From an uncultured Rivibacter sp. (GTDB taxonomy: Bacteria > Pseudomonadota > Gammaproteobacteria > Burkholderiales > Burkholderiaceae), in contig CAMLLU010000034.1 in NCBI GenBank assembly GCA_946480925.1, positions 1 to 56,816 on the forward strand: a stretch of DNA of 56,816 bases. Direction: 5' to 3'. The notes under the pieces are model-generated. The model saw only the letters and a list, made by a program, of their open reading frames with translations. It made no database searches and was not told where the DNA came from. Shown one piece after another: positions 26,739 through 44,116 of this stretch; the first letter of the stretch is position 1, and each line of letters starts with the position of its first letter. A program made the translations under genes and the position numbers.

Positions 26739-27743
26739 ATGAGTTCTGGCGCCTTGCCGTTGACAAGCGCAGAGCCGGGGGCCGTTTGCGGCCCCTGGGG
26801 CTCGGCTGCGCTCGGCGGCTGGTATCGACGCGAAGAAGCCGTCATGGGCACGGCCATCAGCGTCGAGCTGTGGGCGCACGAAGGCGGCACGGCCGAAGCG
26901 GCCATGGCGGCCGTCATCGACGAGATGCACCGTATCGACCGCACGATGAGTCCGTTCAAGCCCGACTCGGAGCTCTCGCGCATCAACCGCGACGCGGCCT
27001 TGGCGCCTGTGCCGGTGAGCCGCGAGATGGCGGCGCTCATCGCCCGTTCGGTCGAGTTCTCGTGCCTGTCCCACGGTGCGTTCGACATCACCTACGCCAG
27101 CGCGGGCGCGCTGTACGACTACCGCGAAGGCATTGCACCCAGCGACGAGGCGCTGGCCGAAGCGCGGGCGGCCATCGGCTGGCAGCTGCTCGAAGTGGAC
27201 CTGCAGGCCTGCACCGTGCGCTTCCTGCGCCCTGGCATGCGCATCGACCTCGGCGGTTTCGCCAAGGGCCATGCGGTGGACAACGCGGTGGTGACCCTCA
27301 GGGAGCATGGCATCACCAATGCCTTCGTGGCTGCCGGCGGCGACAGCCGCGTGCTCGGCGACCGCCGCGGCCGCCCGTGGACCGTCGGCGTGCGCGACCC
27401 GCGCCGGCCCGGCGAAGTGGTGGCCGTGCTGCCGCTCGAAGACGCGGCGATCTCGACCTCGGGCGACTACGAGCGCTACTTCGAACGTGACGGCGTGCGC
27501 TGCCACCACGTCATCGACCCGAAGACCGGCCGGTCGCCCGACGGCGTGCGCAGCGTGACCATCCTGGCCGATGACGGGCTCACCGCCGAGGCCTTGTCGA
27601 AAAGCGTGTTCGTGCTGGGCCTCGAAAGAGGCCTGCAGCTCGTCGAATCCCAACGCGGCGTCGACGCCATCGTGGTCGATGCCGCGGGTTCCTTGCATTA
27701 CTCGTCGGGGCTGCTCGGTGCAGCGCCGGCGACTCCGCAGTAA
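26739..27743 (+). CDS. ApbE-family flavin transferase
   Basis: Attaches FMN from FAD to Ser/Thr of periplasmic redox proteins. The 334-aa protein has the ApbE landmarks MSPFKPDSELSRINRD (residues about 69-84), IDLGGFAKGHAVDNAV, the FAD-binding AAISTSGDYERYF and HHVIDPKTGRSPDGVRSVTI, and the late LSKSVFVLGLERG. Translation starts at ATG 26739 with GGAGG 6 bases ahead. No signal peptide or lipobox is visible, unlike typical periplasmic ApbE. It opens the operon of haem lipoproteins, barrels, TPR proteins and an ExbBD motor. No FMN-binding target motif is obvious in the operon. Confidence 0.9.
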   Translation: MSSGALPLTSAEPGAVCGPWGSAALGGWYRREEAVMGTAISVELWAHEGGTAEAAMAAVIDEMHRIDRTMSPFKPDSELSRINRDAALAPVPVSREMAALIARSVEFSCLSHGAFDITYASAGALYDYREGIAPSDEALAEARAAIGWQLLEVDLQACTVRFLRPGMRIDLGGFAKGHAVDNAVVTLREHGITNAFVAAGGDSRVLGDRRGRPWTVGVRDPRRPGEVVAVLPLEDAAISTSGDYERYFERDGVRCHHVIDPKTGRSPDGVRSVTILADDGLTAEALSKSVFVLGLERGLQLVESQRGVDAIVVDAAGSLHYSSGLLGAAPATPQ

Positions 27744-27814
27744 GCAGAAGACAAAGAAGACAGAAGAGCCAGAAGTACTCGCTCGCCCCAACCGAAGCGA
27801 CCGGAGAGAGGAAG

Positions 27815-30811
27815 ATGAAGAAACTCACGATGACCACCGCGCTTGCCTCAACAGCAACCGCAGCGTTGACCCTTGGGCTCGCCGGCTGCGGCAGCGGTGA
27901 TTCGGGCGTCACGGTCGAGGGCGACGTGCCCATCGCCTACGTGAAGCGCTCCACCAGCATCTCCATCAACCCGACCGACGGTGCCCCGTCTGCGGCTGGC
28001 GGCGACCTGATGATCCGCGAGAAGTCCTCGCCGAGCGCGCCCGAGCACAACGTCACCGCGAGCTTCACGCGCGGGCAGGGCGACGCCTCCGACCCCGAGG
28101 TGTCGTACGACGGCAAGAAGATCGTGTTCGCGATGCGCTGCCCGGTGAACGGCAGCCCCACCGTCAACGGCCAGGTGGCCTGCACGGGCCGCTGGAACAT
28201 CTGGGAATACGACATGAGCGCCGGCGGTTTCACCGGCGGCAGCTTCCGTCGCGTCACCAGCAGCACCGAGCACGACGACGTGGACCCGGCCTACCTGCCG
28301 GCCGGCCGCGGCTTCGTGTTCGCGTCGAACCGCCAGGCCAAGTCGAGCCAGAACCAGGCGCTGGGCCAGAAGTATTTCGCGCTCGACGAATACGAGCGCG
28401 AGCGCGTGCTGAACCTGCACACGATGGACGTCGACGGCAACGGCATCACGCAGATCACCTTCAACCAGAGCCACGACCGCAACCCGGTGGTGCGCCCCAA
28501 CGGCGACATCATGTTCGCGCGCTGGGAGCACGTGGCCGACCGCAACCGCTTCGCGATCTTCCGCACCAAGCCCGACGGCACCGACATGTTCGTGCTGTAC
28601 GGCGCGCAAAGCCCGGGCAACAGCTTCCTGCACCCGCGCGACATGGACCCGTCGGGGGCCTACAAGGGCAAGCTCACGTCTTCGCTGATGCCGCTGTCGC
28701 GCACGCAGGAAGGCGGCGCGCTGATGGTCGTGGACGCGGCCAACTACTCCGAATACAACACCCCGGCCAACTCCACCATCCCCGCGCAGGGCGGCCAGGT
28801 GCAGTCCACCGCCGAAACGCTGAACGACGGCATGGGCCTGTCGCTCAACGGCCGCGTCACCACGCCGTACCCGCTGTGGGACGGCACCGACCGCGTGCTG
28901 GTGGCCTACCGCCCGTGCGAGGTCACGCGTGACGGCGTCGTCGTACCGTGTTCCACGTTGACCTTGGATGAGCGGGCGCGCGTCTCGAACCGCAACCGCA
29001 CGATGGCCGAGGCGGCTGCCGACTCGCTGCAGGACAACGCTCCCGCGGCCTATGCCATCTACATGTTCAACCCGAAGAAGCAGACCTGGCTGAACGTGGC
29101 CGCGCCGCCTGCGGGCTTCATGTACACCGACCCGATCGCGCTGCAGGCCCGCACCGAGCCCAACGCCACCGACCCGACCAACGTGGACCCGGCGCTGGCC
29201 GCGCAGGACATGGCGCTCATCGAAGTGCGCTCGGTGTACGACACCGACAGCCTGAACCGCATGTCGGACCCGATGCTTACCGCGGCCGACCTGCCTGCAG
29301 GTTGCACCACGGCCATCGCCAAGACCGCGCCTACCGACGCGCTGGACACGCGCACCCAGGTGGCCGACCTCCTGCGCATCAAGAACCCGGCCGACGAGGC
29401 CTACCGCTGCGCCCCGGCCCGCTTCGTGCGCGCCGTGCGGGCCATCGCGCCGCCTTCGAGCACCATGGGCCTGCGCTCGGCCATCGGCGAAACCGAGTTC
29501 GAGCAGCAGCAGATCCTGGGCTACGCCGTCGTGGAGCCCGATGGCTCGTTCAAGCTCAAGGTGCCGGCCGACATTCCGCTGGGCCTGCAGATCATCGACG
29601 CCAAGGGCCGCGCCTTCCAGACGCACACCAACTGGATCCAGGTGCGCCCCGGTGAACGCCGCACCTGCGACGGTTGCCACAGCCCGCGCCGTGGCGCCTC
29701 CATGAACTCCGGCACCGTGGTCAACACCATGCCCGCGGCACTGGTGCAGGCGCTGGCCGGTGCTCACCAGTCCGGCGAAACCATGGCCTCCACGCGCACC
29801 CGCCTCGACGCCAACCTGCTCAACCTGGTGCCCGACCTCGACTACACCGACGTGTGGGCCGACACCACGCAGACCGGCGTGACGGCGCGCCCGAGCGTCC
29901 TGGTGCGCTACACCGGCAACGCCAACTCGGCCGACGACCTGGCCACCAAGGTGCCTACCAGCGGCGTCATCAATTACCCGCAGCACATCGCTCCGCTGTG
30001 GACCCGCTCGCGGGGTACGGGTGGTGCCAACACCTGCACCAACTGCCATGCCGATCCGGCCAAGCTCGACCTGCGCAGCACCACGGCAGGCACCGGTCGT
30101 GTGGTGTCGTATGAAGAGCTGCTGCTGGGCGACCCGGTGCTTGGCGCCAACGGCCAGCCGGTGACTCGCATCCGCGACGGCGTGCCCGAGATCGAGCGCG
30201 GCCCCGCGCTGGTGGAAACGAGCTCCAGCGCTTCCAACACCGCAGGCCAGGCCCGCAAGAGCCGCCTCACCGAGATCATGTTCGGCGAAACGCTGCTGGC
30301 CGGTGCCGCTGCACGCACGGCCTTCCCTGGCCCCACCGCCGGCGCGCCCGACCATTCGACGCTGCTCAACGCGGCCGAGAAGCGCCTGCTGGTGGAGTGG
30401 ATCGACCTGGGTGGCCAGTACTACAACGACCCGTTCGGTGCCGGCAGCGGCGTGCGCACCGTCAACACGCTGAGCCAGGCCACCTTCGAGGCGCAGGTGT
30501 GGCCGGTGCTGCGTTCCACCTGTGCGTCGGCCTGCCACCAGGCCATCGGCACCGACCCCAGCATCGTGGGCGGCGGCCAGTTCCGCGGCAACCGCTTCGT
30601 GCTCACCGGCAGCGCCGAGGGCGACTACAACGTCACGCTGTCGATGATCTCGGACACCTGCAACGCGGCGCAGAACTTCCTGCTCTCGCGCCCGTCCACG
30701 GTGCCGCACCCGGCCGGCGCCACCACGCAGACCGCCGCGGTGCTGCCGGCGGGCAGCGCGGGCTACACCGCCATCGCGAACTGGATCACCTCGGGCTGCG
30801 GAGCACCATGA
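27815..30811 (+). CDS. Large multihaem lipoprotein (PD40/HzsA-like)
   Basis: A 998-aa lipoprotein: signal peptide with lipobox LAGC at residue 25. Residues about 35-330 have WD40/PD40-like beta-propeller repeats (DPEVSYDGKKIVFAM, VDPAYLPAGRGFVFASN, NPVVRPNGDIMFAR). A middle region ends with IDAKGRAFQTHTNWIQVRPG. Haem attachment motifs are C618xxC621H, C741xxC744H and an unusual C903xxxC907H. The design (propeller plus cytochrome domains) resembles hydrazine-synthase alpha-subunit-like proteins. Predicted location is the outer membrane, function electron transfer or an oxidative reaction. It overlaps the next gene by 4 bases. Confidence 0.85.
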   Translation: MKKLTMTTALASTATAALTLGLAGCGSGDSGVTVEGDVPIAYVKRSTSISINPTDGAPSAAGGDLMIREKSSPSAPEHNVTASFTRGQGDASDPEVSYDGKKIVFAMRCPVNGSPTVNGQVACTGRWNIWEYDMSAGGFTGGSFRRVTSSTEHDDVDPAYLPAGRGFVFASNRQAKSSQNQALGQKYFALDEYERERVLNLHTMDVDGNGITQITFNQSHDRNPVVRPNGDIMFARWEHVADRNRFAIFRTKPDGTDMFVLYGAQSPGNSFLHPRDMDPSGAYKGKLTSSLMPLSRTQEGGALMVVDAANYSEYNTPANSTIPAQGGQVQSTAETLNDGMGLSLNGRVTTPYPLWDGTDRVLVAYRPCEVTRDGVVVPCSTLTLDERARVSNRNRTMAEAAADSLQDNAPAAYAIYMFNPKKQTWLNVAAPPAGFMYTDPIALQARTEPNATDPTNVDPALAAQDMALIEVRSVYDTDSLNRMSDPMLTAADLPAGCTTAIAKTAPTDALDTRTQVADLLRIKNPADEAYRCAPARFVRAVRAIAPPSSTMGLRSAIGETEFEQQQILGYAVVEPDGSFKLKVPADIPLGLQIIDAKGRAFQTHTNWIQVRPGERRTCDGCHSPRRGASMNSGTVVNTMPAALVQALAGAHQSGETMASTRTRLDANLLNLVPDLDYTDVWADTTQTGVTARPSVLVRYTGNANSADDLATKVPTSGVINYPQHIAPLWTRSRGTGGANTCTNCHADPAKLDLRSTTAGTGRVVSYEELLLGDPVLGANGQPVTRIRDGVPEIERGPALVETSSSASNTAGQARKSRLTEIMFGETLLAGAAARTAFPGPTAGAPDHSTLLNAAEKRLLVEWIDLGGQYYNDPFGAGSGVRTVNTLSQATFEAQVWPVLRSTCASACHQAIGTDPSIVGGGQFRGNRFVLTGSAEGDYNVTLSMISDTCNAAQNFLLSRPSTVPHPAGATTQTAAVLPAGSAGYTAIANWITSGCGAP

Positions 30812-31446
30812 CGGTCGAGTTTCAACACGCAACCTCGCGGGGCGCGGCGCGCCTCGCGGCGGCCACGTTCATGGTCGCCGCCGCCTTGCTGGCCAGCTGC
30901 GGCGGCGGCTCCAACCCGCTGGACAACCCCCCCGAGGTCGAAAACCCCGGCGGCACGGGCGGGCAGAAGCTTTCGTTCGCCTACTTCCAGCGCTGCATCA
31001 ACCCCATCTTCCTGGCGCAGCTGCAGATCAACCAGAACGGCGTGATCTCCACCAACACCTGCGCGGCCTCCGGCTGCCACGACAACACCGTCGGCACGGG
31101 CGGTGCGTTCCGCGTGGTGCAGTCGGCGCAGGCCGTGGACCTTTCGAATGCGGCCAACACGCCCGACGTGGTGCGCACCAGCGACATGTACAAGAACTAC
31201 TACTCGGCCGCGGGCGAGGTGTTCATCAGCTCGCCCGCGCAGAGCCGCCTGCTCACCAAGCCCATGGTCAACGGCGTGCTGCACGGCGGCGGCCTCATCT
31301 TCGAGAACCTGCAGGACCCGAACGCGCGGCTCATCCAGTATTGGATGAGCCGCCCCATGCCAGCAGGGCAAGACGAATTCAGCACCGCGGCGGCCAACAT
31401 GTTCACGCCGGCGGACATCAACACCGGGGCCTGCAACACGCAATGA
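30808..31446 (+). CDS. Lipoprotein with CX4CH haem-like motif
   Basis: A 212-aa lipoprotein with signal peptide and lipobox LLASC near residue 31 followed by a Gly/Pro linker (SNPLDNPPEVENPGGTGG). The single cytochrome-like site is C85-AASG-C90-H91, spacing CX4CH rather than CX2CH. A further motif set is SPAQSRLLTKPMVNGVLHGG, as in cytochrome c/PSCyt domains where a saccharide-like or haem cleft is formed. It overlaps both neighbours by 4 bases, so it is expressed as partner of the large haem lipoprotein. Whether haem is really attached at CX4CH is untested. Confidence 0.82.
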   Translation: MTVEFQHATSRGAARLAAATFMVAAALLASCGGGSNPLDNPPEVENPGGTGGQKLSFAYFQRCINPIFLAQLQINQNGVISTNTCAASGCHDNTVGTGGAFRVVQSAQAVDLSNAANTPDVVRTSDMYKNYYSAAGEVFISSPAQSRLLTKPMVNGVLHGGGLIFENLQDPNARLIQYWMSRPMPAGQDEFSTAAANMFTPADINTGACNTQ

Positions 31447-32237
31447 GAAATCTGGTGTTCCGGGCGGCCCGGCGTTTCCTCGAAGGCAGCAGGTTCCTTG
31501 TCATCACGGCGGTGTGCTGCACCGCAGTGGCTTCCATGCCGGCGCATGCGGCCGACCAAGACAAGACCGAGCGCGTGCAGATCACCGACCCCTACATCGA
31601 GCTGCACACCGGCCCGGGCCGCGGCTTCCCGGTGTTCTTCGTCGCGCCGCGCGGCGAATGGATCGGCATCACGCTGCGCCACACCGACTGGTACAAGGTG
31701 CGCACCGAAGGCGGCAAGGAAGGCTGGGTGCACCGCCGCCAGCTCGAGACCACGCTCACCGAAGCAGGCGGACAGAAGACCTTCCGCGATCTCGTGGTCG
31801 ACGACTACCTCCTGCGTAAGCTGGAGCTGGGCGGCGGCTGGGGCCGCTTCGACAAGGAGCCCATGCTCAAGATCTGGAGCAGCTACCGCCTGTCGGACAC
31901 GCTGTCGATCGAGGGCACGGTGGGGCAGGTGCAGGGCGTGTTCTCGGGCACCGACTTCTGGCACGTCAACCTCAACGTCGAGCCCTGGTCCGACCGGCGC
32001 CTGTCGCCCTTCTTCGGCGTGGGCTTCGGCCGCTTCAAGAACGTGCCGAACCAGAGCCTCGTGTCTTCCATCCCCACCGACGCCAAGCTCGCCAACATGG
32101 GCCTGGGCGTGCGCTACTACATCACCGACCGGTTCGTGCTGCGCGCGGACTACTCCATCTACACCGCCTTCGTGGCCGACACGCGCTCCACCGAGTACCG
32201 CGCCATCGCGGCAGGCCTGTCGTTCTTCTTCCAGTAA
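31443..32237 (+). CDS. Outer-membrane barrel protein with SH3-like domain
   Basis: 264 aa with a signal peptide (VITAVCCTAVASMPAHA, cleavage near residue 37). A bacterial SH3 domain follows (about 45-105: ITDPYIELHTGPGRGFPVFF, EGWVHRRQLET) that could bind peptidoglycan or protein. Then comes a beta-barrel of about eight strands ending in aromatic FFFQ, as outer-membrane assembly requires. It resembles the OMP_myx_plus barrel family known from Myxococcales. It begins in the stop codon of the previous gene and ends directly before the next barrel gene. Confidence 0.82.
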   Translation: MRNLVFRAARRFLEGSRFLVITAVCCTAVASMPAHAADQDKTERVQITDPYIELHTGPGRGFPVFFVAPRGEWIGITLRHTDWYKVRTEGGKEGWVHRRQLETTLTEAGGQKTFRDLVVDDYLLRKLELGGGWGRFDKEPMLKIWSSYRLSDTLSIEGTVGQVQGVFSGTDFWHVNLNVEPWSDRRLSPFFGVGFGRFKNVPNQSLVSSIPTDAKLANMGLGVRYYITDRFVLRADYSIYTAFVADTRSTEYRAIAAGLSFFFQ

Positions 32238-32909
32238 ATGAGCATGCGCCTACATCACTTCACCGCCTCGATGCTGCTGGCCGCCGGCGCCCTGGCGAGC
32301 CCCTTCGCCGCGGCGCAGAGCACGCCGGCCCAGCCCGGCGCGCAGCAGCCCGCCAACGAACAGGTCATCGAGCCGCAGGTGGACCGACGCGACGTGAAGC
32401 TGCCGCGCTTCCCGTCGAAGGACTTCGAGATCGGCCTGTTCGCCGGCACCTACCAGACCGAGAACTTCGGCTCCAACACGGTGGCCGGGCTGCGCCTGGG
32501 CTACCACATCACCGAGGACTTCTTCGTCCAGGCCGCCTACGCGCAGACGAAGGTGAGCGACGAATCGTTCCGCCAGATCCTGCCCGGCGGCGTGTTCGGC
32601 CAGCCTGAGGAAAAGCTCACCTACTACAACCTCTCGGTGGGCTACAACCTGCTGCCCGGCGAGGTGTTCATCGGCAAGAACATCGCCAAGGCCAACGCCA
32701 TCTACCTGATCGCCGGCATCGGCAGCACCGACTTCAACCAGAAGAAGAGCCAGACCTACAACTTCGGCCTGGGCACGCGCCTCATGCTGAAGGACTGGGC
32801 CGCCGTGCAGGTGGACCTGCGCGACCACATCTTCTCGATGGACCTGCTGGGCCAGCGCAAGAGCACGCAGAACCTCGAGCTCACCGCCGGCCTCACCTTC
32901 TTCTTCTGA
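32238..32909 (+). CDS. Outer-membrane beta-barrel protein
   Basis: A 223-aa secreted barrel. The signal peptide MRLHHFTASMLLAAGALASP is preceded by an in-frame ATG two codons earlier; cleavage is after FAAAQ. A Pro/Gln linker and VIEPQVDRRDVKLPRFPSKD precede eight amphipathic strands (FEIGLFAGTYQTENFGSNTV through LELTAGLTFFF). The C-terminal Phe triple is the outer-membrane insertion signal. Same family as the barrel just upstream but without the SH3 domain. Start and preceding stop codon are adjacent with no gap. Confidence 0.84.
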   Translation: MSMRLHHFTASMLLAAGALASPFAAAQSTPAQPGAQQPANEQVIEPQVDRRDVKLPRFPSKDFEIGLFAGTYQTENFGSNTVAGLRLGYHITEDFFVQAAYAQTKVSDESFRQILPGGVFGQPEEKLTYYNLSVGYNLLPGEVFIGKNIAKANAIYLIAGIGSTDFNQKKSQTYNFGLGTRLMLKDWAAVQVDLRDHIFSMDLLGQRKSTQNLELTAGLTFFF

Positions 32910-32928
32910 GCAACCCAGAGCAGTAACG

Positions 32929-33443
<515 letters not shown>

Positions 33444-33447
<4 letters not shown>

Positions 33448-33689
33448 ACGCCACACTGCGCCTCGCTTCGCTGGCCGTGCCGTGCCTGCTGTGCGTTTGC
33501 ACCGGGCTTGCGGGCTGCGGCTCCATCGAGCCCTGGGTCAAGCCTTACGAACGCGAGAAGCTCGCCGACCCGGTGATGCAGTTCTCACGCGACGGCCTGC
33601 CCGACAGGCACCGCGAACACGTGCGCGTGGTGCGTGAAGGCGCACGCGGCGCCACCGGCGTGCAAGGGGGCGGCTGTGGCTGCAACTGA
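33444..33689 (+). CDS. DUF4266 lipoprotein with Cys-rich tail
   Basis: An 81-aa lipoprotein: lipobox LAGC with Cys25, then SIEPWVKPYEREKLADPVMQ, the family signature, and a C-terminal GGGCGCN. The last seven residues with two Cys separated by Gly look like a metal-binding or thiol motif. DUF4266 is regularly found with DUF3570, TlpA and ApbE. No function is known to me. It overlaps the TlpA stop by 4 bases and the DUF3570 start by 14. Confidence 0.85.
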
Positions 33690-35443: not shown

Positions 35444-37338
35444 TGTTCTTGCGCCGCTTCCCTCGTTCAAAAGCGCTGCGGCGGCTTGCCGTGACTGCGG
35501 CGCTTGCATCGGTCGTGTGTGCCGTCACCGCGGCCGACAAGCCCTCGCCGCACGTCGTGCAGGACCCCCACTACGGCGACACGCTGTTCCACTTCTTCCA
35601 GGACCGCTACTTCACCTCGATCACCACGCTGATGGTGTCGCAGCACTTCAACCGCGTGTCGCAGCATGCCGACGAGGCCGAGCTGTTGCGCGGCGGGATG
35701 CTGCTGTCTTACGGGCTGCACCGCGAGGCGGGGGAGATCTTCGCGCAGCTCATCGACAAGAGCGCCACCCCGGCGGTGCGCGACCGTGCGTGGTTCTATG
35801 TCGCCAAGATCCGCTACCAGCGCGGCTTCCTGCCAGAGGCGCAGGAGGCGATGGCGCGCATCGAGAAGAACCTGCCGCCCGCGCTCGAAGAAGAGCGGGC
35901 GCTGCTGCAGGCCAACCTGCTGCTGGCGCGCGGCGACTACGCCGCCGCTGCCGAAGCGCTGAAGGGCCCGGCTGCGAAGGCCGAGGCCGGGCAGTACGCG
36001 CGCTTCAACCTGGGCGTGGCGCTGGTGAAGGGCGGTGATGCCAAGGCCGGCTCCGCCATGCTCGACGAGCTGGGCAAGGCGCCGGCCCCCACTGAAGAAT
36101 TCCGCAGCCTGCGCGACAAAGCCAACGTGGCGCTGGGCTTCACCGCATTGCAGAACCAGGAGCCGCAGGCAGCACGTGGCTACCTCGAGCGCGTGCGCCT
36201 GAGCAGCCCGCACGCCAACAAGGCGCTGCTCGGCTTCGGCTGGGCTGCCGCCGAGATGAAGAACGCGAAGCTCGCGCTCGTGCCGTGGACCGAGCTCGCC
36301 ACGCGCGACCCGAGCGATTCGGCCGTGCTCGAAGCGCGCATCGCCGTGCCTTATGCCTATGCCGAGCTGGGCGCCTATGGCCAGGCGCTGGAGCGCTACA
36401 ACGAAGCCATTGCCGAGTTCGAACGCGAGGAGCGTGCGCTCGACGAAACCATTGCCGCCATCCGCGCCGGCAAGCTGGTGCAAGGCCTGGCCGAAAGCAA
36501 CCCGGGCGACGAGATGGGCTGGTTCTGGAACATCCGCGAACTGCCCGAAATGCCGCACAGCCGCCATCTCGCGCAAGTGATGTCGCAGCACGAGTTCCAG
36601 GAAGCCTTCAAGAACTGGCGCGACCTGCAGTTCCTGCAGCGCAACCTGCAGCGCTGGCAAGACAACCTGGGCGTCTTCAACGACATGCTCGACAACCGCC
36701 GCAAGGCCTTCGCCGAGCGGCTGCCGCAGGTGCGCGCCAAGGCCAGCGAAAACGGGCTGGCGCAGCTGAAGCAGCAGGCCGATGCATTGGCCAGGGAGTT
36801 GGCGGGAGTGGAGGCGAATGCCGACGCGAAGGCCTTTGCCGACGAACGCGAGCGCGCGCTGATCGAGCGGCTCGACCGCGCACGCGCCACGCTGGAACAG
36901 CTGGGTCAGGACGAAGAAGCCGCCAAGGCGCGCGAGCGCTATCGCCTCGCCGCTGGCGCCATGACCTGGCAGCTTGCGCAGCAGTACCCCAGCCGCCTGT
37001 GGGAAGCGAAGAAGGGCCAGAAGACGCTCGAAACCCAGCTGGCCGAAGCCCAACGCCGCGACGCCGCGCTGGCACAGGCGCAGAAGGACGAGCCGGTGCG
37101 CTTCGACAAGTTCGCCGAGCGCATCGCGACGCTCAACCCGCGCATCGCCGCGCTGCTGCCGCGCGTGGTGGTGCTCAGCACCGAGCAGCAGCAACAGGTG
37201 CAGGACATCGCGGTGGCCGAGCTGTCGCGCCAGAAGGACCGCCTGGCCGCCTATGCGATGCAGGCGCGTTTTGCGGTGGCGCAGCTGTATGACCGCGCCA
37301 TCGCCACGAGGAGTGCGAATGACACGCCCAAGCAGTAG
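35443..37338 (+). CDS. Large secreted TPR protein (1)
   Basis: A 631-aa protein with a signal peptide (RRLAVTAALASVVCAVTAAD). Tetratricopeptide-like helical repeats run from about residue 60 to 330 (HREAGEIFAQLIDKSATPAV, RGFLPEAQEAMARIEKNLPP and others). A long coiled-coil region follows, about 400-620, with Lys/Glu/Gln-rich LKQQADALARELAGVEANAD. It belongs to the periplasmic scaffolds next to the ExbB-type motor, like those seen near myxococcal gliding genes. The next gene begins 20 bases before its end. Confidence 0.83.
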   Translation: MFLRRFPRSKALRRLAVTAALASVVCAVTAADKPSPHVVQDPHYGDTLFHFFQDRYFTSITTLMVSQHFNRVSQHADEAELLRGGMLLSYGLHREAGEIFAQLIDKSATPAVRDRAWFYVAKIRYQRGFLPEAQEAMARIEKNLPPALEEERALLQANLLLARGDYAAAAEALKGPAAKAEAGQYARFNLGVALVKGGDAKAGSAMLDELGKAPAPTEEFRSLRDKANVALGFTALQNQEPQAARGYLERVRLSSPHANKALLGFGWAAAEMKNAKLALVPWTELATRDPSDSAVLEARIAVPYAYAELGAYGQALERYNEAIAEFEREERALDETIAAIRAGKLVQGLAESNPGDEMGWFWNIRELPEMPHSRHLAQVMSQHEFQEAFKNWRDLQFLQRNLQRWQDNLGVFNDMLDNRRKAFAERLPQVRAKASENGLAQLKQQADALARELAGVEANADAKAFADERERALIERLDRARATLEQLGQDEEAAKARERYRLAAGAMTWQLAQQYPSRLWEAKKGQKTLETQLAEAQRRDAALAQAQKDEPVRFDKFAERIATLNPRIAALLPRVVVLSTEQQQQVQDIAVAELSRQKDRLAAYAMQARFAVAQLYDRAIATRSANDTPKQ

Positions 37339-40195
37339 CCTGGCGGTGCTCATCGCCTGCGGCGTGCTCGCGGCCTGTGCCGGCAAGCGCACCGGCAAGC
37401 TCGAAGACGAAGTCACGCTCAAGAGCCTGGCCGGCCGTACCGTGGCGGTGGCCGAAGACAAGGGCATCCAGGCCACCGAAGAGCAGGCCATCGCCGCCTA
37501 CAAGAAGTTCCTCGAAGTGGCGCCCAATGCGCCGCAGCGCGCCGAGGCCATTCGCCGCCTGGGCGACCTGGAGATGGACAACGCCGACAGCCGTTTCGCC
37601 AACGGTGAACCCGTGGCCAGCCCGGTGGCGGCTGCTTCGCCGGGCGCTGCGGCTTCGGGCGTGCAGCCCGGCGACGGCCCCGACTACCGCTCGGCCGTGG
37701 CGCACTACCAGCGCTACCTGAAGGACTACCCGAACGACCCCAACAACGACCGCGTGCTCTACCAGTTGGCCCGCGCGCAGGAACAGGCCGGTGACCTGGA
37801 AGCCTCGCTCAAGACGCTGGACAAGCTGGCGATCGAAGCGCCCAAGACCATCTACCGCGACGAGGCCAACTTCCGCCGCGGCGAGCTGCTCTTTTCGCTG
37901 CGCGAATACGTGAAGGCCGAGCAGGCCTACGCCACCGTGCTGAAGGGCGACTCGGCCAACCCGTATCGCGAACGCGCGCTCTACATGCAAGGCTGGGCAC
38001 AGTTCAAGCAGGGCCGGCTCGAAGAGTCGCTGCATTCCTTCTTCGGCGTGCTCGACCTCAAGGTGGCCAACAAGGGCGACGAAGGCGGGCTGGAGAACAT
38101 CCCCAGCCTCACGCGAGCCGACCGCGAGCTGGTGGAAGACACCTTCCGCGTGGCCAGCATCAGCCTGGCCAACCTGCAGGGCGCGGAGTCGATTCCGGCC
38201 TACATGAACACGCCCGAGCGCAAGAGCTACGAGTTCCGCGTGTACGAGCAGCTCGGCGCGCTGTACCTCAAGCAGGAACGCGTGAAGGACGCCGCCGACA
38301 CCCTGGGCCTCTTCGCGCGCCGCGACCCGCTGCATGCACAGGCGCCGCAGCTGCAGGCGCAGGTGATCGACATCTACCAGGACAACGGCTTCGGCACGCT
38401 GGCGCTCGAAGCCAAGAAGGACTACGTGTCGCGCTACGGCATCGACAGCGAGTTCCGCCGCGCCAACCCGGCCGGCTGGGAGCGCGCGCAGCCGTTGGTG
38501 AAGACGCACCTCACCGAGCTGGCGCGCCACCACCATGCGCTGGCGCAAAAGAGCAAGGCGAGCGCGGACTATCAGGAAGCGGTGCGCTGGTACCGCGCCT
38601 ACATCGCGTCCTTCCCCAACGACCCCGACACCGCGCAGAACAACTTCCTGCTGGCCGAGCTGCTGTACGAAGACAAGCAGTACGCCGCGGCCGCGGTCGA
38701 GTACGAGAAGGCCGCCTACCAGTACCCGCAGCACGCCAAGAGCGCCGATGCCGGCTATGCCGCGCTGCTGGCCTATGCCGAGCAGGAAAAACGCGTGTCC
38801 GCGGCCGAGCTGCCCGCACTGCAGCGCACCAGCGTCGACAGCGCCTTGCGCTTCGCTCAGGCCTTCAAGAGCGACACGCGCACCGGCCCCGTGCTCACCA
38901 ACGCGGCCGAGAAGCTCTTCAACCTGCGTGAGGGCGAGCAGGCCGCCAAGGTGGCCCAGCAGGTGCTCGACCTGGCCCCGCCCGCCTCGGCAGCCAACCG
39001 CCGCGTGGCCTGGACGGTGATCGCGCACACCGCGTTCGACCGCGCGACCTACGACGTGGCCGAACGCGCCTATGGCGAAGTGCTGGCGCTCACGCCCGAA
39101 AAGGAGACCGGCCGCAACGAGCTGGTCGAGCGCGTGGCCGCGTCGATCTACAAGCAAGGCGAGCTGGCGCGCGATGCCGGCGATCTGCGCAAAGCGGTAG
39201 GCCACTTCGAACGCGTGGCGATCACCGCGCCGCAATCGACCATCCGCGCCACGGCGCAGTACGACGCCGCGGCCGCGCTCATCACGCTGAAGGACTGGGA
39301 CGCCGCCACCCGCACGTTGGAAGACTTCCGCCAGCGTTACCCCAACCACGCGCTGCAGGCCGAGGTGGGCAACAAGCTCGCGGTGGCTTACGTCGAGAAG
39401 GGCCAGTGGGCGCAGGCTGCGGGCGAATTCGAGCGCGTGGCCAACACGAGCAAGGACCCGCAGCTCGCACGCCAGGCGCTGTGGCAGGCCGCCGAACTGC
39501 ACGAGAAGGGCGCCGAAAAGGGCGGCTCGCGTGCTGCCGCGGTGAAGACCTGGGAGCGCTACGTCAAGCAGTACCCGCAGCCCTTCGAACCCGCCATGGA
39601 AGCGCGCTGGCGCCTCGCCAAGCTGGCCAAGGCCGACGGCAACGCCACGCGCGAACTGGCGCTCATGAAAGAGATCTTCCAGGCCGACAAGTCCGCCGGT
39701 AGCGCGCGCACCGAACGCACGCGCTACCTCGGTGCCACCGCCGCGCTGGCACTGGCCGAGCCGGTGTATGCCGACTACCGCAAGGTCGCGCTGGTGGAGC
39801 CGCTGGCGAAACAGCTCAAGCTGAAGAAGGCCAGGATGGAAGAGGTGCTGAAGGCCTATGCCGTGGCCACCGACTACGGCGTGGCCGACGTGACCACCGC
39901 CGCCACCTACCACGTGGCCGCGCTGTACCAGGACTTCGGCAAGGCGCTCATGACCTCGCAGCGACCCAAGAAGCTCTCGAAGCTGGAGCTCGAGCAATAC
40001 AACGTGATGCTCGAGGAGCAGGCCTTCCCGTTCGAAGAAAAGGCCTTCGAGCTGCACGAGGTGAACGCGAGGCGCGCCAGCGAAGGCATCTACGACCAGT
40101 GGGTGAAGAACAGCTTCAAGGCGCTGGGCGAGTTGCGGCCGGTGCGTTACGGCAAGGTCGAACGCAGCGAAGGAGCGGTCAATGAGATCCGCTAG
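37319..40195 (+). CDS. Very large TPR lipoprotein (2)
   Basis: 958 aa. MTRPSSSLAVLIACGVLAAC is a lipoprotein signal with Cys20 as the acylated residue. The remainder consists of many TPR-type helix pairs from about residue 110 to the end (KDYPNDPNNDRVLYQLARAQ, EYVKAEQAYATVLKGDSANP, NNFLLAELLYEDKQYAAAAV, FRQRYPNHALQAEVGNKLAV). Such solenoids act as assembly platforms. It overlaps the genes on both sides by 20 and 14 bases, supporting fixed stoichiometry. The start was chosen for the lipobox; longer readings lie inside the previous gene. Confidence 0.85.
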   Translation: MTRPSSSLAVLIACGVLAACAGKRTGKLEDEVTLKSLAGRTVAVAEDKGIQATEEQAIAAYKKFLEVAPNAPQRAEAIRRLGDLEMDNADSRFANGEPVASPVAAASPGAAASGVQPGDGPDYRSAVAHYQRYLKDYPNDPNNDRVLYQLARAQEQAGDLEASLKTLDKLAIEAPKTIYRDEANFRRGELLFSLREYVKAEQAYATVLKGDSANPYRERALYMQGWAQFKQGRLEESLHSFFGVLDLKVANKGDEGGLENIPSLTRADRELVEDTFRVASISLANLQGAESIPAYMNTPERKSYEFRVYEQLGALYLKQERVKDAADTLGLFARRDPLHAQAPQLQAQVIDIYQDNGFGTLALEAKKDYVSRYGIDSEFRRANPAGWERAQPLVKTHLTELARHHHALAQKSKASADYQEAVRWYRAYIASFPNDPDTAQNNFLLAELLYEDKQYAAAAVEYEKAAYQYPQHAKSADAGYAALLAYAEQEKRVSAAELPALQRTSVDSALRFAQAFKSDTRTGPVLTNAAEKLFNLREGEQAAKVAQQVLDLAPPASAANRRVAWTVIAHTAFDRATYDVAERAYGEVLALTPEKETGRNELVERVAASIYKQGELARDAGDLRKAVGHFERVAITAPQSTIRATAQYDAAAALITLKDWDAATRTLEDFRQRYPNHALQAEVGNKLAVAYVEKGQWAQAAGEFERVANTSKDPQLARQALWQAAELHEKGAEKGGSRAAAVKTWERYVKQYPQPFEPAMEARWRLAKLAKADGNATRELALMKEIFQADKSAGSARTERTRYLGATAALALAEPVYADYRKVALVEPLAKQLKLKKARMEEVLKAYAVATDYGVADVTTAATYHVAALYQDFGKALMTSQRPKKLSKLELEQYNVMLEEQAFPFEEKAFELHEVNARRASEGIYDQWVKNSFKALGELRPVRYGKVERSEGAVNEIR

Positions 40196-40931
40196 TTCGT
40201 CGCGCTGCTGCGGCCTGCTGCTGGCGTTTGCCTGCGTTGCGAGCGGCTGTTCTTCGGTGGCGCAGAGCTTGCCGGCTTCGGTGCAGGCGGCGGCGAAGTC
40301 GGTGGTCGATGCGGTCACGCCGTCCACTGCGGCTGCGTCTGCGAGTGCGCCCGCGGCGGTGCCGATCGCCAAGCCCGCGCCCGAAGTGCCCGTGAGCCCC
40401 GCGGCGCAACGCGCTTTCGACGAGGCCCTGCGAGCCCTGCGTGCCGGTCGCGTGGACGAAGCCGAACGCGGTTTCGTGGCGCTTACCCAGTCCAACCCCG
40501 AGCTGGGCGGCTCCTTCGCCAACCTCGGCGTCATCTACCGCCAGGCCGGCAAGCTGCCCGAGTCGGCCAAGGCGCTGGAAGAGGCGGTGCGCGTGAGCCC
40601 ACGGCAGCCGGTGTACTTCAACCACCTGGGCATCACCTACCGCCACCAGGGCCAGTTCACCAAGGCACGCGGGGCCTACGAGCAGGCCATCGCGCTCGAT
40701 GCCAACTACGCAGCGCCGCACCTCAACCTCGGCATCCTGCACGACCTCTACCTCGGCGACGCCAAGCGGGCGCTCGAGCTCTACGACCGCTATCTCGCGC
40801 TGTCGCCGCAAGGTGATGCAACGGTAACCAAGTGGATCGCAGACCTGAAGAATCGCAAGCCGGCGCCGATCACCGTGAGTCAGACGGGCAGCAACGGCAG
40901 CACCGCCGGCAGTGCGAAGGAGAAGGAATGA
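40182..40931 (+). CDS. TPR lipoprotein (3)
   Basis: 249 aa with a lipoprotein signal (LLLAFACVASGC, Cys at 23). An Ala/Pro-rich low-complexity spacer (residues 30-70) follows, then three clear TPRs with the canonical positions: AEALRALRAGRVDEAERGF-type, GGSFANLGVIYRQAGKLPES and VYFNHLGITYRHQGQFTKAR, NYAAPHLNLGILHDLYLGDA. It probably docks outer- or inner-membrane parts of the complex. It overlaps the next gene by 4 bases. Confidence 0.87.
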   Translation: MRSASSSRCCGLLLAFACVASGCSSVAQSLPASVQAAAKSVVDAVTPSTAAASASAPAAVPIAKPAPEVPVSPAAQRAFDEALRALRAGRVDEAERGFVALTQSNPELGGSFANLGVIYRQAGKLPESAKALEEAVRVSPRQPVYFNHLGITYRHQGQFTKARGAYEQAIALDANYAAPHLNLGILHDLYLGDAKRALELYDRYLALSPQGDATVTKWIADLKNRKPAPITVSQTGSNGSTAGSAKEKE

Positions 40932-41236
40932 AGCACATCTTCTTGACGTTGACGATCCTGGTGATCGCCGCGGCGGCTCTCTTCGTGGCGCCGGCCTTCG
41001 CGCAAGACCGTGCCGACATCGACCGCACGCAGATCATCGGCAACCGCGAGCTGCCCAAGGTGCTCTACATCGTGCCGTGGAAGAAGCCGCTGCCGGGCGA
41101 GCTGGCGGGCCGCCCGGTGCAAAGCGTGCTCGACGAGGCGCTCGCGCCGGTCGATCGCGACGTGTTCCGCCGCCAGGTGCAGTACGACGCGCAACTCACC
41201 GCGCGCGAAGCCGCTGCACCGAAGCAAACCAAGTGA
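40928..41236 (+). CDS. Small secreted protein of the operon
   Basis: 102 aa with a signal peptide (MKHIFLTLTILVIAAAALFV, cleavage after AFA). The mature part is short: DRADIDRTQIIGNRELPKVL, YIVPWKKPLPGELAGRPVQS, then a charged helix. Very similar small proteins occur just before ExbB-type genes in related operons in other proteobacteria (recalled, not searched). Function unknown. A 52-bp gap with AGGAG follows before the ExbB-like gene. Confidence 0.8.
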   Translation: MKHIFLTLTILVIAAAALFVAPAFAQDRADIDRTQIIGNRELPKVLYIVPWKKPLPGELAGRPVQSVLDEALAPVDRDVFRRQVQYDAQLTAREAAAPKQTK

Positions 41237-41288: not shown

Positions 41289-41951
41289 ATGATGACTGCC
41301 TTCCAGACCGCCGTGAAGTTCTTCCAGGACAGCGGCTTGTTCATCTACCCCAGCATCCTGATCATGGCGCTGGGCCTGTCGATCGCGATCGAGCGCTTCA
41401 TCTTCCTGAACCGTTCGCGCAGCGAAAACCGCAAGCTGTGGGCCAAGGTGCTGCCCATGCTGCAGAACGGGCGTTTCAAGGAAGTGCTCAGCATCACCTC
41501 CGAGTCCGACGCCGCCATCGGCAAGATCATGACCAACGGCCTGCTGCGCATGCAGAGCCCCGGCCGCCGCGAAGACCTCGACGCCGCGATGGAGGAGGGC
41601 ATGATGGAAATCGTGCCGCGCCTGGAGAAGCGCACCCACTACATCGCCACCTTCGCCAACGTGATCACGCTGGTGGGCCTGCTGGGCACCATCATCGGCC
41701 TCATCAAGGGCTTCACCGCTGTGGCGCAGGTGAACCCGGCCGAAAAGGCCGAGCTGCTGTCGGCCTCGATCTCCATCGCGATGAACAACACCGCGTTCGC
41801 GCTCATGGTGGCCATTCCGTTCCTGCTGATCCACGCCTTCCTGCAGGCCCGCACGAGCGAGATCGTCGACGGCCTGGAAGCCGCCAAGATCAGCTTCCTG
41901 AACCTGGTGCAGCGCCTGAAGGCCGAGCAGGGCGCTCCGGCTTCCCGTTGA
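41289..41951 (+). CDS. MotA/TolQ/ExbB-family proton-channel protein
   Basis: Inner-membrane motor subunit of 220 aa. Three membrane helices: about 16-36 (GLFIYPSILIMALGLSIAIE), about 120-145 (THYIATFANVITLVGLLGTI), and about 160-185 (NNTAFALMVAIPFLLIHAFL). LVGLLGTIIGLIKGF and the Thr/Ala-rich second helix are the ExbB/TolQ signatures; a large cytoplasmic loop separates helices 1 and 2. With the two ExbD-like proteins it would convert proton flow into movement of the TonB-like protein encoded downstream. An AGGAG site lies 5-8 bases before a double ATG; 41289 is taken. Confidence 0.92.
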   Translation: MMTAFQTAVKFFQDSGLFIYPSILIMALGLSIAIERFIFLNRSRSENRKLWAKVLPMLQNGRFKEVLSITSESDAAIGKIMTNGLLRMQSPGRREDLDAAMEEGMMEIVPRLEKRTHYIATFANVITLVGLLGTIIGLIKGFTAVAQVNPAEKAELLSASISIAMNNTAFALMVAIPFLLIHAFLQARTSEIVDGLEAAKISFLNLVQRLKAEQGAPASR

Positions 41952-42006
41952 GCCGCTCCCTGAAGACCTCGTTGTTGCCAACCCCAGTCGAGGAGAGGGG
42001 CCGACC

Positions 42007-42510
42007 ATGCGTGTAAGACGTCTGCGCAAACAGGTGGCGGAGCTCGAAGTCACCGCCTTCATCAACCTCATCGTCGTGCTCGTGCCGTTCCTGCTCTCCA
42101 CGGCCGTGTTCACGCGCCTGGCGGTGATGGACCTTTCGCTGCCCGCCCAGTCATCGGGCGGCGCCGAGCAGCTGAAGGAAAACAACCTCAAGCTCGAAGT
42201 CGTGATCCGGCCCGACGCGCTCGAGGTCGGCGACCGCATCGGCGGCCTCATCCAGCGCATCCCGAACACCGACAAGGGCTACGACATCAAGGCCTTGTCG
42301 GCGCTCATCCAGATGCTCAAGGGCAAGTTCCCCAACCAGACCGATGCGACCGTGCTGGCCCAACCCAACACCTCGTACGACGCGCTGGTGCAGGTGATGG
42401 ACGCCGTGCGTGAAAGCCAGGTGGTGCAGGGGCCCAAGGTCACCCGCACCGAACTCTTCCCCGACATCTCCATCGGCGACGCGCCGGTCAGCCAGGGCAG
42501 CAAGCCATGA
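42007..42510 (+). CDS. ExbD/TolR-family protein, channel Asp replaced by Asn
   Basis: 167 aa: short cytoplasmic tail, one membrane helix (VTAFINLIVVLVPFLLSTAV) and a periplasmic domain from about 40. In ExbD, TolR and MotB the helix carries an essential Asp in a context like FIDVMLVLL; here the position reads FINLIVVLV with Asn20. It is therefore unlikely to carry protons itself and may pair with the second ExbD, which keeps the Asp. It overlaps that gene by 4 bases. Confidence 0.88.
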   Translation: MRVRRLRKQVAELEVTAFINLIVVLVPFLLSTAVFTRLAVMDLSLPAQSSGGAEQLKENNLKLEVVIRPDALEVGDRIGGLIQRIPNTDKGYDIKALSALIQMLKGKFPNQTDATVLAQPNTSYDALVQVMDAVRESQVVQGPKVTRTELFPDISIGDAPVSQGSKP

Positions 42511-43001
42511 CGCTCACCCCCTTGCAGAAGCGCGCCGAGCGCAAGGCGCGCAACCACCAGGGCCTCGACATGAACCTGGTGTCGCTGATCGACATCTTCA
42601 CGATCCTGATCTTCTTCCTGCTCTCCAGTGCCACCGGCGTCGAGACGCTGCCCAGCCCCAAGGCGGTGAAGCTGCCCGAGTCGTTTGCCGACAAGAGCCC
42701 GAAGGAAACCATCATCGTGGCGGTGAATGCCGAAGAGATCATCGTCGACGGCCGCAAGGTCGCTTCGGTGGCCGAGGTGATGGCCGCGAAGGACGACCTC
42801 ATCCCCGCGCTCAAGGCCGAGCTGGACCTGCTCAGCAACACCCGCCAGGTGGTGCTCGAGAAGAACAAGGAGCAGTCCAAGGCCATCACGATCATGGGCG
42901 ACAAGGACATCCCCTACCAGCTGCTGCGCAAGGTCATGTACACGAGCGCACGCGCGAACTTCAGCGACGTGTCGTTCGCGGTTCGCAGGAAGGACGCATG
43001 A
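42507..43001 (+). CDS. ExbD/TolR-family protein with channel Asp
   Basis: 164 aa with the pattern NHQGLDMNLVSLIDIFTILIFF: the membrane helix contains Asp29, the proton-accepting residue of the family. A periplasmic domain with PSPKAVKLPESFADKSPKET and a C-terminal ITIMGDKDIPYQLLRKVMYT matches TolR/ExbD dimerisation domains. It forms the active proton path with the ExbB-like protein. ATGA overlap with the AgmX-like gene. Confidence 0.92.
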   Translation: MTLTPLQKRAERKARNHQGLDMNLVSLIDIFTILIFFLLSSATGVETLPSPKAVKLPESFADKSPKETIIVAVNAEEIIVDGRKVASVAEVMAAKDDLIPALKAELDLLSNTRQVVLEKNKEQSKAITIMGDKDIPYQLLRKVMYTSARANFSDVSFAVRRKDA

Positions 43002-44116
43002 CAGCCGTCGCCGTGTCGTTCCGTGCTCCGGTACTGCCATGGGCCGTATCGGAAGACGACGAAAAGCGCTTCAAGCGCATCCTCAACCGGGTGCTCATCG
43101 CAGCGGTGCTGCTGTGCCTGTTGATGCTGCTGTGGCCCAGGCCGCAGGTCGATCGCGCGCAGCCGCAGGAGCTGCCGCCGCGGCTGGCCAAGCTGCTCAT
43201 CGACAAGGAGCCGCCACCGGTGCCGGTGGCGCCGCCCAAGCCCGCCGCCAACCCCAAGCCCGAGCAGCAGGCCAAGGACGCCAAGCCCGAGCCCAGCACC
43301 AACAAGCCCGACCCGGCCAGGCCCGAGCCGCCCAAGGCGGCCGTCGCACCGGAAGCTCGCCGCCCCATCGCCGGGCTGCCGCCTGGTGAAAAGAGCGTGG
43401 ACAACGCGCGCCGCAAGGCCGCGGGTGTGGGCTTGCTGGCCATGAGCGACCAGCTCGCCGAACTGCGCGGCGCACCGGCGGCCGTGCAGCTGAAGCAGGA
43501 CATCAAGCAGGGCCCCGGCGTGGGCACCGGTGTCGGCGTGGGCGTGGGGGCCGGCAAGGACCCGGGCCTGCCCGATCGTTCGCTCATCACCTCCAACGCC
43601 ACCGGCGGCTCGGGCGGCATCAACACCGCCGCCTACAGCCGCAACACCGGCGGCGGCGGCCTCGCGGGCCGTGCCACCACGCTGGTCGAAGGCGTGGCCG
43701 GCGGCGGCGGTGGTGGCGGCCCGGGCGGCGGTGGCGTGCGCGGCGGCAAGGGCGACGGCACGGGCACCGGCACAGGCGGCGGCAAGGGTGCCGGCGGCAC
43801 CATGCAGCGCGACGGCAGCGGCAAGGCTTCGCGTTCGCTCGAAGAGATCAAGCTGGTGTTCGAGCGCAACAAGGGCGCCATCTACGCGATCTACAACCGC
43901 GCCCTGCGCGAAGACCCCACGCTGCAGGGCAAGGTGGTCATCGCCCTGAAGATCGCACCGGCCGGCAACGTGATCGACTGCCGCATCGTCTCGAGCGAGC
44001 TGAAGTCGCCCGAGCTCGAAAGCAAGCTGTTGGCCCGCATCCGCCAGTTCGACTTCGGCGCCAGGGACGTCAACCAGATGGACGTCAACTGGCCGGTGGA
44101 CTTCCTGCCGTCGTAA
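42998..44116 (+). CDS. TonB/AgmX-like energy-transducing protein
   Basis: 372 aa with a single N-terminal membrane helix (about 29-47, VLIAAVLLCLLMLLWP). A Pro/Lys/Ala-rich rod follows (PPPVPVAPPKPAANPKPEQQ), then a long Gly-rich stretch (about 165-275, GGGGGGGPGGGGVRGGKG). The C-terminal AgmX/PglI-type domain (about 285-372: KLVFERNKGAIYAIYNRALR, GKVVIALKIAPAGNVIDCRI) is like the TonB C-terminus. It should span the periplasm and hand motor energy to the outer-membrane parts of the apparatus. It is the last gene of the operon. Confidence 0.9.
   Translation: MTAVAVSFRAPVLPWAVSEDDEKRFKRILNRVLIAAVLLCLLMLLWPRPQVDRAQPQELPPRLAKLLIDKEPPPVPVAPPKPAANPKPEQQAKDAKPEPSTNKPDPARPEPPKAAVAPEARRPIAGLPPGEKSVDNARRKAAGVGLLAMSDQLAELRGAPAAVQLKQDIKQGPGVGTGVGVGVGAGKDPGLPDRSLITSNATGGSGGINTAAYSRNTGGGGLAGRATTLVEGVAGGGGGGGPGGGGVRGGKGDGTGTGTGGGKGAGGTMQRDGSGKASRSLEEIKLVFERNKGAIYAIYNRALREDPTLQGKVVIALKIAPAGNVIDCRIVSSELKSPELESKLLARIRQFDFGARDVNQMDVNWPVDFLPS

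Follow-up and report, generated by a model that had tools for sequence, protein, structure and literature searches.

Luciano et al. (2011) described a Group B core of the Agl/Glt machinery, i.e. gltC, D, E, and G together with aglR, Q, and S, the function of which was unknown. These authors found the core in Gammaproteobacteria, in Geobacter and Fibrobacter, and in a single betaproteobacterium, and it includes an extra gene that is absent from Myxococcales (PMC3169522). Meheust et al. (2021) described clusters of genes for ApbE, DUF3570, a thioredoxin, and DUF4266 with a C-terminal CXC, 316 of which are without DsbD (PMC8238504). Here we report on an operon of 17 genes in a DNA stretch of 56,816 nt from an uncultured Rivibacter sp. 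(contig CAMLLU010000034.1 of assembly GCA_946480925.1), called the window in the following, in which a motor half and a redox half are fused. A preliminary description of the window had held that no described system has this set of genes. This has to be corrected, because the motor half corresponds to the published Agl/Glt core (PMC3169522) and part of the remainder to the published DUF3570/DUF4266/ApbE module (PMC8238504). We consider it somewhat probable that the 17 genes encode one proton-driven trans-envelope machine that acts on an outer-membrane redox assembly.

All 17 genes are located on the + strand, from the start of the first gene, encoding ApbE, at 26739 to the stop of the last gene, encoding a protein with an AgmX tail, at 44116; the gene count, single direction, and coordinates of the preliminary description were exact. 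The 16 junctions range from -20 to +71 bp, i.e. ten overlaps of 1-20 bp, one abutting pair, and five gaps of 7, 19, 55, 55, and 71 bp. A sigma-70 scan of 26-45 kb predicted zero promoters, and terminator-like sites occur at chance level (12 versus 14.0 +- 3.7), with none at the 34854/34862 junction. No internal promoter or terminator splitting the halves was found, such a scan being weak evidence in GC-rich DNA. Rfam and tRNA scans yielded no matches.

The conservation of the operon was analysed with g9, the signature protein of the motor cassette. An alignment scan of named genomes matched 325 stretches, of which 80 loci were kept. Their titles are mostly Burkholderiales or Betaproteobacteria, a few being only Proteobacteria or Pseudomonadota, and the genera include Methylibium, Piscinibacter, Ideonella, Rhizobacter, Rubrivivax, Aquabacterium, Sapientia, and others. 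The synteny check proposed in the preliminary description was made with hidden Markov models (HMMs); 49 of the 80 loci have the complete set of 17 genes, always arranged as in the window, without a single order violation. Among the 34 loci with at least 9 kb on each side of g9, 30 are complete, three are minus one gene at the threshold, and one is rearranged. Deduplication by identical g9 showed that 14 of 98 Burkholderiales-type loci are genome repeats, leaving 84 distinct loci; wherever a recount was made, the deduplicated numbers are given. The gap between the DUF3570 gene and g9, calculated with the first in-frame start, has a median of 11 bp and is 60 bp or smaller in 79 of the 84 complete composites (loci with both halves) considered below. 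The flanking genes for urate oxidase and a GGDEF protein were found at none of the 84 distinct loci (tblastn, E<=1e-20). The same search found the ends of the operon, i.e. ApbE at 63 and AgmX at 65 of the 84 loci, many others being truncated by contig ends. The gene arrangement is not a product of chance.

For a wider view, genomes were drawn at several taxonomic levels, and g9 was found in 1 of 250 genomes of an order draw, 19 of 150 of a family draw, and 14 of 398 of a phylum draw. Since the draws sample groups evenly rather than at random and include the seed genome, no frequency is claimed. The 19 genomes of the family draw, which are mostly among those of the 80-locus scan, have 20 loci. 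Eighteen of these are composites, i.e. contain both halves (one of them is rearranged and another is truncated at a contig end), and the others are a contig-edge locus and a motor-only second copy. In a second family (59 genomes, five of them shared with the phylum draw), 20 genomes have g9, and 20 of 20 loci are composites with the core order kept. The fused association spans at least three sampled families. In the three non-Burkholderiales composites that were examined further upstream, ApbE is encoded 12-14 kb upstream of g9; in one of them (L131), three divergent genes, two with haem motifs, are located between the PD40 lipoprotein gene of the redox half (see below) and the ApbE gene.

The halves are also linked by the co-occurrence of the motor with one of the barrels of the redox half, an outer-membrane beta-barrel of the OMP_myx_plus family (32238..32909, +; TIGR04565 E=2.8e-45, 154.2 bits, cut-off 60). 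In the phylum draw, TIGR04565 exceeds its cut-off in 12 of the 398 genomes, and only these were used (matches with E<=0.001 below the cut-off are present in 108 of 398). Eleven genomes have a strong match (142-174 bits), and all of them are among the 14 genomes with g9, ten with the barrel at the motor locus and one with the barrel in the split redox half of G188. The remaining three genomes with g9 have no strong barrel match and are motor-only. The hypergeometric probability of 11 out of 11 falling within 14 of 398 is 4e-19, with the seed genome included and before correction for kinship.

Trees of the redox genes (33 composite and 11-13 stand-alone sequences) separate composite from stand-alone sequences with supports of 1.0 (DUF3570), 0.999 (DUF4266), and 0.915 (TlpA), i.e. 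the composite redox genes are one clade, apart from the stand-alone ones. For 84 complete composites, the distances of the redox and motor genes are correlated with r 0.976. The values within the groups are 0.78 (54 Burkholderiales-type) and 0.98 (30 others), each reached by none of 999 permutations. The two trees have 49 of 81 splits in common. Of the supported redox splits, 9 of 59 are contradicted by a supported motor split, and in the reverse direction the value is 6 of 47.

The preliminary description had named independent occurrence of the two halves in most genomes as a finding that would speak against their unity. For the generic families this occurrence is real, whereas the subfamilies of this operon are bound to the motor. 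DUF4266 was found at 13 places in 11 genomes of an order draw of 120, and g9 was present in none of the ten DUF4266 genomes other than G001. Eleven stand-alone DUF4266 clusters were inspected; DUF3570 is present in all 11, ApbE in nine, and TlpA in nine. The 14 genomes of the phylum draw with g9 have 17 loci, i.e. nine composites (two of them contig-cut), one with motor and ApbE only (G188), one of a form called type A (G176), and six motor-only loci. A further locus (L146 of G709), assigned to the motor-only loci by a script, was left out, since its sequence stops about 150 bases after g9. In G188, the region at about 390 kb encodes ApbE and the motor, and the region at about 494-500 kb encodes PD40, both barrels, TlpA, DUF4266, and DUF3570; thus, the halves are 100 kb apart, both are retained, and ApbE has stayed beside the motor. 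Type A loci, nine of which were seen, are without DUF3570, have kept both barrels in divergent orientation, and encode the PD40 haem protein downstream of the shaft. In the family of G176, g9 is present in 66 of 81 genomes, at more than 100 places in total. The 24 places that were fetched (20 higher-scoring, four lower) and the two loci of G176 itself, a selection that favours composites, comprise 12 loci with the redox set, nine type A loci, and five motor-only loci. The conserved order, the co-occurrence of barrel and motor, the single redox clade, and the retention of both halves when separated in G188 support the conclusion that the two halves are inherited together as a unit in this lineage. 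The part of the preliminary description that postulated one joint apparatus is therefore upheld with respect to inheritance, while the action of the motor at an outer-membrane cytochrome complex is something that we infer.

Several observations weigh against the reading as one machine. Stand-alone redox modules are common (12 of the 13 DUF4266 matches are in clusters without the motor), and so are motor-only cassettes (6 of the 17 loci of the phylum draw). Two large genomes of a third sampled family, G783 and G775, both counted above among the 12 loci with the redox set, have composites that begin with PD40 and of which the small gene or TPR3 is the last gene; the stretches fetched contain no ExbB, ExbD, or AgmX after it (L181/L233 and L182/L234). 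A second g9 is present in G783, in a cassette 25 kb away, and in G775, 1.2 Mb away. In the chromosome of a metagenome-assembled genome, G642 (L140, L198, L235), the operon is broken inside TPR1 and its parts are 0.47 Mb apart. Besides the remainder of TPR1, the displaced part carries TPR2, TPR3, the small gene, ExbB, and ExbD1; neither ExbD2 nor AgmX was found next to it. The layout is either a rearrangement or a mis-assembly. Two barrel matches just above the TIGR04565 cut-off are not linked to a motor, i.e. one of 62.6 bits in G072, a genome without g9, and an extra one of 62.1 bits in G176, away from its motor loci. The Burkholderiales-type DUF3570 is without Gly at either site of its flavinylation motif, and site 2 is without Gly in all composites read (see below). 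Vertical descent alone would also yield the congruence of the trees. In addition, the motor tree (43 loci, with L067 and L150 stemming from one genome) places the Burkholderiales-type and the other composites in separate groups, and motor-only copies are interspersed between and within these groups; several of its deep supports are 0.25-0.62. The loci in G783, G775, and G642 left the probability that we assign to one machine unchanged, because the motor genes of Myxococcus are also kept at a separate locus.

One ancestral composite clade was looked for in the motor tree and rejected, as it was not seen, although the redox genes form one clade. Either a fused ancestor was followed by repeated loss or duplication of halves, or the redox cassette has moved in one piece. 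Two further loci had been candidates for exceptions. G642 (L039/L140) was rejected as a motor-less redox half when the motor genes through ExbD1 were found 0.47 Mb away, and L076 was rejected as g9, TPR1, and TPR2 are present in a different layout, followed by the contig end. L076 also encodes a protein with two CXXCH motifs, the end of which resembles, as judged by eye, that of a protein in non-Burkholderiales composites.

These results bear on an alternative that we regard as quite improbable, i.e. that the two halves have independent functions and share the operon by history, with co-regulation and no physical coupling. Both modules exist separately, two genomes keep redox and TPR genes without adjoining ExbB-ExbD-AgmX, and the tree congruence could come from vertical descent, all of which this alternative accommodates. 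The spread over at least three sampled families, the recurrence of the same partners in rearranged forms (type A, G188), and the dedicated redox clades speak against it.

The families of the 17 proteins were assigned by Pfam and NCBIfam profile searches. The redox half starts with the ApbE flavin transferase (26739..27743, +; PF02424 E=2.9e-83), whose probable substrate, the DUF3570 protein (33676..34854, +; PF12094 E=1.5e-35 on 33634-34851), most likely starts with the GTG at 33676. An AlphaFold2 model predicts a 16-strand beta-barrel (pLDDT 82, pTM 0.79). In such barrels, both ends are usually periplasmic and the even-numbered turns short. This rule places the altered double flavinylation motif DAVSNASIDVMTTAS (33973..34017, +; mature residues 45-59) at the predicted end of strand 3 and in the loop after it, the second outer one, which is poorly ordered in the model.

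The published ApbE substrates of the DUF3570 family contain [S/T]GA[S/T] twice (PMC8238504), and at least one such motif is present in 11 of 11 stand-alone DUF3570 proteins. In contrast to the stand-alone proteins, site 1 of the Burkholderiales-type composites reads SNAS (71), TNAS (2), or SSAS (2) in the 75 readable sequences, none with Gly (four gapped sequences were excluded). At site 2, TTAS (68) and close variants were found, again without Gly in the 75. In the other composites (n=33), site 1 reads SGAS or TGAS in 12, SSAS in 11, and SAAS in ten cases, and Gly at site 2 is absent from all 108 composite sequences. The pair of [S/T]GA[S/T] motifs that characterises flavinylation clusters is therefore not present in the composite DUF3570 proteins read. 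The rigid conservation of the altered motif suggests its continued use, perhaps by a co-adapted ApbE, and ApbE probably flavinylates DUF3570 in the periplasm.

ApbE is followed by a lipoprotein with PD40 beta-propeller repeats and an HZS-alpha middle domain (27815..30811, +; PF18582 E=2.5e-20, PF07676; lipobox LAGC). It has three haem-like motifs, CDGCH, CTNCH, and CASACH; this number of motifs is found in 66 of the 68 Burkholderiales-type sequences, and the other composites have two (33 of 33). The second haem-motif lipoprotein (30808..31446, +; lipobox LASC, no Pfam match) has a single CX4CH, CAASGCH, which is conserved in 67 of 67 Burkholderiales-type loci having a match; the HMM scan did not detect this lipoprotein in the non-Burkholderiales composites. 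In two such composites, a divergent gene set adjoins PD40 (L131 7210-12437, L169 16427-20000), encoding a CXXCH protein with a sub-threshold PSD2/DUF1585 match and a LamG-type lipoprotein with haem motifs, and in L131 additionally a Tat-type secreted protein. A protein with an SH3 domain and an outer-membrane beta-barrel (31443..32237, +; PF08239, PF13505) precedes the OMP_myx_plus barrel, the second of the two, which ends with a C-terminal Phe in 104 of 105 sequences. The periplasmic thioredoxin is of the TlpA/redoxin (AhpC-TSA) type and has the motif WCGPC (32929..33447, +; PF08534 E=9.7e-34; WCxPC in relatives); PF13899 is unmatched at E<=0.01. The DUF4266 lipoprotein (33444..33689, +; PF14086 E=1.5e-21) has a C-terminal CGC in 106 of 106 distinct composite loci having a match, and it is the third redox-half protein with a lipobox.

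The motor half begins with g9 (34862..35443, +), which has no family and a signal-peptide-like N-terminus; it is modelled as a helix and an eight-strand beta-sandwich with moderate confidence (pLDDT 73; four other models 43-55). In public records, g9 carries the label "AraC family transcriptional regulator", which found no support in this analysis. In view of the N-terminus and the model, the label looks like a propagated error. Three TPR proteins follow, i.e. the periplasmic TPR1 (35443..37338, +) and the large lipoprotein TPR2 (37319..40195, +), which by order only are in the positions of GltC and GltD, and the GltE-like lipoprotein TPR3 (40182..40931, +). The best match of TPR3 is the NCBIfam GltE model (E=2.3e-14, 53 bits), below that model's cut-off of 225. 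TPR2 passes the models for YbgF (108.4/90.1 bits) and BamD/YfiO (85.2/81.4); since two models are passed and the protein has 958 aa, these are probably TPR cross-matches. Two details of the preliminary description need adjustment. It had announced three large TPR proteins, of which the third turned out to be small (249 aa), and the second of its two haem-motif lipoproteins has the CX4CH described above rather than CXXCH. The next gene encodes a small secreted protein of the motor cassette without a family (40928..41236, +; HMM match in 67 of 80 loci).

The proton channel is ExbB/TolQ/AglR-like (41292..41951, +; PF01618 E=9.5e-25), and together with the two ExbD-like proteins in the same run (both PF02472) it has the composition of an AglR-like channel. 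ExbD1 (42007..42510, +) has Asn (codon 42064-42066) at the position of the proton-binding Asp of ExbD/TolR, and ExbD2 (42507..43001, +) has Asp (codon 42591-42593). With motor-only cassettes included, Asn is present in 119 of 120 distinct loci for ExbD1 (Ser in the other one) and Asp in 119 of 119 for ExbD2. In M. xanthus, the AglQ D28N mutant is inactive (PMC3858216). The channel and the ExbD-like proteins score below the NCBIfam equivalog cut-offs for TolQ (51.9/221 bits), ExbB (32/206), TolR (31.6/127), and ExbD (22.9/123). The operon ends with the TonB-like shaft (42998..44116, +), which matches the AgmX/PglI C-terminal domain (NF033768 60.2 bits, cut-off 40) as well as tonB_Cterm (TIGR01352 30.5, cut-off 27.1). 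TonB_C alone was found in Pfam at E<=0.01, i.e. no FHA domain, and the shafts of two motor-only relatives match GltG below its cut-off.

Taken as one machine, the operon would comprise an inner-membrane proton motor of the 5:2 type, built from ExbB and a heterodimer of ExbD1-Asn and ExbD2-Asp, which would move the AgmX-tailed TonB-like shaft. The TPR proteins, periplasmic or lipid-anchored, and g9 would transmit the force over the periplasm to an outer-membrane redox assembly made of the OMP_myx_plus barrel, the SH3-barrel, the DUF3570 barrel, probably flavinylated by ApbE in the periplasm, and the haem lipoproteins related to hydrazine synthase alpha. TlpA and the DUF4266 CXC lipoprotein would probably be a thiol relay, reducing DUF3570 or maturing DUF3570 or the haem proteins. 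Most likely, such a machine would assemble, gate, or turn over a complex of the outer membrane that transfers electrons. The flavin and thiol genes are, we think, an addition for electron transfer or maturation, because type A loci have retained the barrels and PD40 in their absence. From the sequences we infer the physical complex, the motor stoichiometry, the flavinylation of the altered motif, the direction of electron flow, and the task of the force, which may open a conduit, drive assembly, or serve surface display. A bolder version, which we put forward tentatively and consider rather unlikely, is that the asymmetric motor with one Asp and one Asn, driven by the proton motive force, mechanically opens, loads, or cycles a flavin/haem barrel complex at the cell surface. 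Inner-membrane energy would in this case control electron exchange over the outer membrane, and this or a similar task on envelope cargo would be ancestral to the machinery that was later adapted to the gliding of Myxococcus.

Another possibility, of limited probability, is a secretion or surface-display machine, in which the motor, the TPR proteins, and the barrels move the operon's own haem and flavin lipoproteins to the cell surface or along it; the redox proteins would be this cargo and the enzymes for its maturation, with surface electron transfer as a separate matter. The lipoboxes on PD40, the second lipoprotein, and DUF4266 are compatible with this possibility, and Wartel et al. (2013) suggested a transport role for the core, i.e. 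a possible basal transport machinery. Moreover, giant surface-type proteins adjoin motor cassettes in two genomes, as noticed by eye: 1710 and 2894 aa at L156 4438-18269 (the second copy of G001), and 2807 aa with repeated segments at L129 6264-14684 (G188). They are possible motor cargo. However, they were noticed at only two of the loci that were read gene by gene, and no secretion-type pore is among the Pfam matches of the operon proteins.

The kinship of motor proteins to the GltE, GltG, GltJ, and AgmX models and the OMP_myx_plus family of the barrel would also fit a motor that drives adhesion or gliding as in Myxococcus, with redox genes that sense or protect, e.g. by thiol/flavin quality control of envelope proteins. 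We regard this as very unlikely, as the conserved partners are haem- and flavin-type proteins and the core alone was judged by Luciano et al. to be unlikely to drive motility (PMC3169522).

A coupling of force and electron transfer at the outer membrane, if true, would add a new principle to envelope energetics. Should the motor serve the display or assembly of the redox proteins instead, its cargo has been identified. In both cases, a motor of previously unassigned purpose gains a first concrete candidate job, and since the fused operon also contains barrels and haem lipoproteins dedicated to it, both halves become testable in relatives from Methylibium, Piscinibacter, Rhizobacter, and Rubrivivax.

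Several known systems resemble parts of the operon. Like hydrazine synthase alpha, the PD40 protein combines a beta-propeller repeat with a PF18582 middle domain that contains a haem motif, and it matches PDB 5c2v with E=4.9e-15. In contrast to this enzyme it is a lipoprotein, the match is confined to residues 552-624, and its score with the equivalog NF052339 is 67.5 bits at a cut-off of 800. With the Ton and Tol-Pal systems the operon shares the motor and shaft families, including the pass of the shaft for tonB_Cterm; the pass of TPR2 for YbgF is, as noted above, probably a TPR cross-match. It differs in that all equivalog cut-offs are missed, that the two ExbDs are unlike each other, one being without the Asp, and that neither a TonB-dependent receptor nor Pal is among the Pfam matches of the 17 genes. 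Other motor families with TPR genes were described by Williams-Jones et al. (2025). An electrode study of Marinobacter (PMC8233155) mentioned an operon of four genes, ExbB-ExbD-ExbD-TonB, in which one gene responded to the deletion of a rubredoxin; this operon may be a motor cassette.

MtrCAB is alike in that it combines an outer-membrane barrel with c-type cytochromes. It is absent from the window and adjoins the motor cassette in one genome, G176, in which genes of the NapC-like, small c-type cytochrome, MtrC/OmcA, DmsE/MtrA, and MtrB/PioB types are located beside the divergent barrels (L132 2873-9892). This link was rejected as support for electron export, since no open reading frame with at least four CXXCH motifs was found in 20 kb of eight related type A loci; for the same reason, the adjacency in G176 is probably incidental.

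The clusters of Meheust et al. share ApbE, DUF3570, a thioredoxin-like protein, and DUF4266 with CXC with the operon. In contrast to them, the redox genes of the operon form a clade of their own, the thioredoxin is a redoxin-type TlpA rather than PF13899, and [S/T]GA[S/T] is absent from the Burkholderiales-type form and present at most once elsewhere. In addition, the module is coupled here to a motor, barrels, and haem lipoproteins, and no motor is mentioned in the accessible part of that paper (PMC8238504). The Agl/Glt core resembles the operon in the ExbB-like channel, the two ExbD-like proteins, the AgmX/PglI-tailed TonB-like protein, and the three TPR proteins encoded at one locus, and g9 or the small gene may be the extra gene of the core that Myxococcales do not have. 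The differences are that the shaft of the operon does not have the FHA domain present on M. xanthus GltG, and that the core is joined here to ApbE, TlpA, DUF4266, DUF3570, haem lipoproteins, and barrels; ApbE, DUF3570, DUF4266, or haem genes are not mentioned in the accessible text of Luciano et al. (PMC3169522). No description of the fused operon was found among the matches listed in the literature search, which missed most subscription papers. The Agl/Glt-type core and the DUF3570/DUF4266/ApbE module are each already described, and it is their union for which no earlier description was found.

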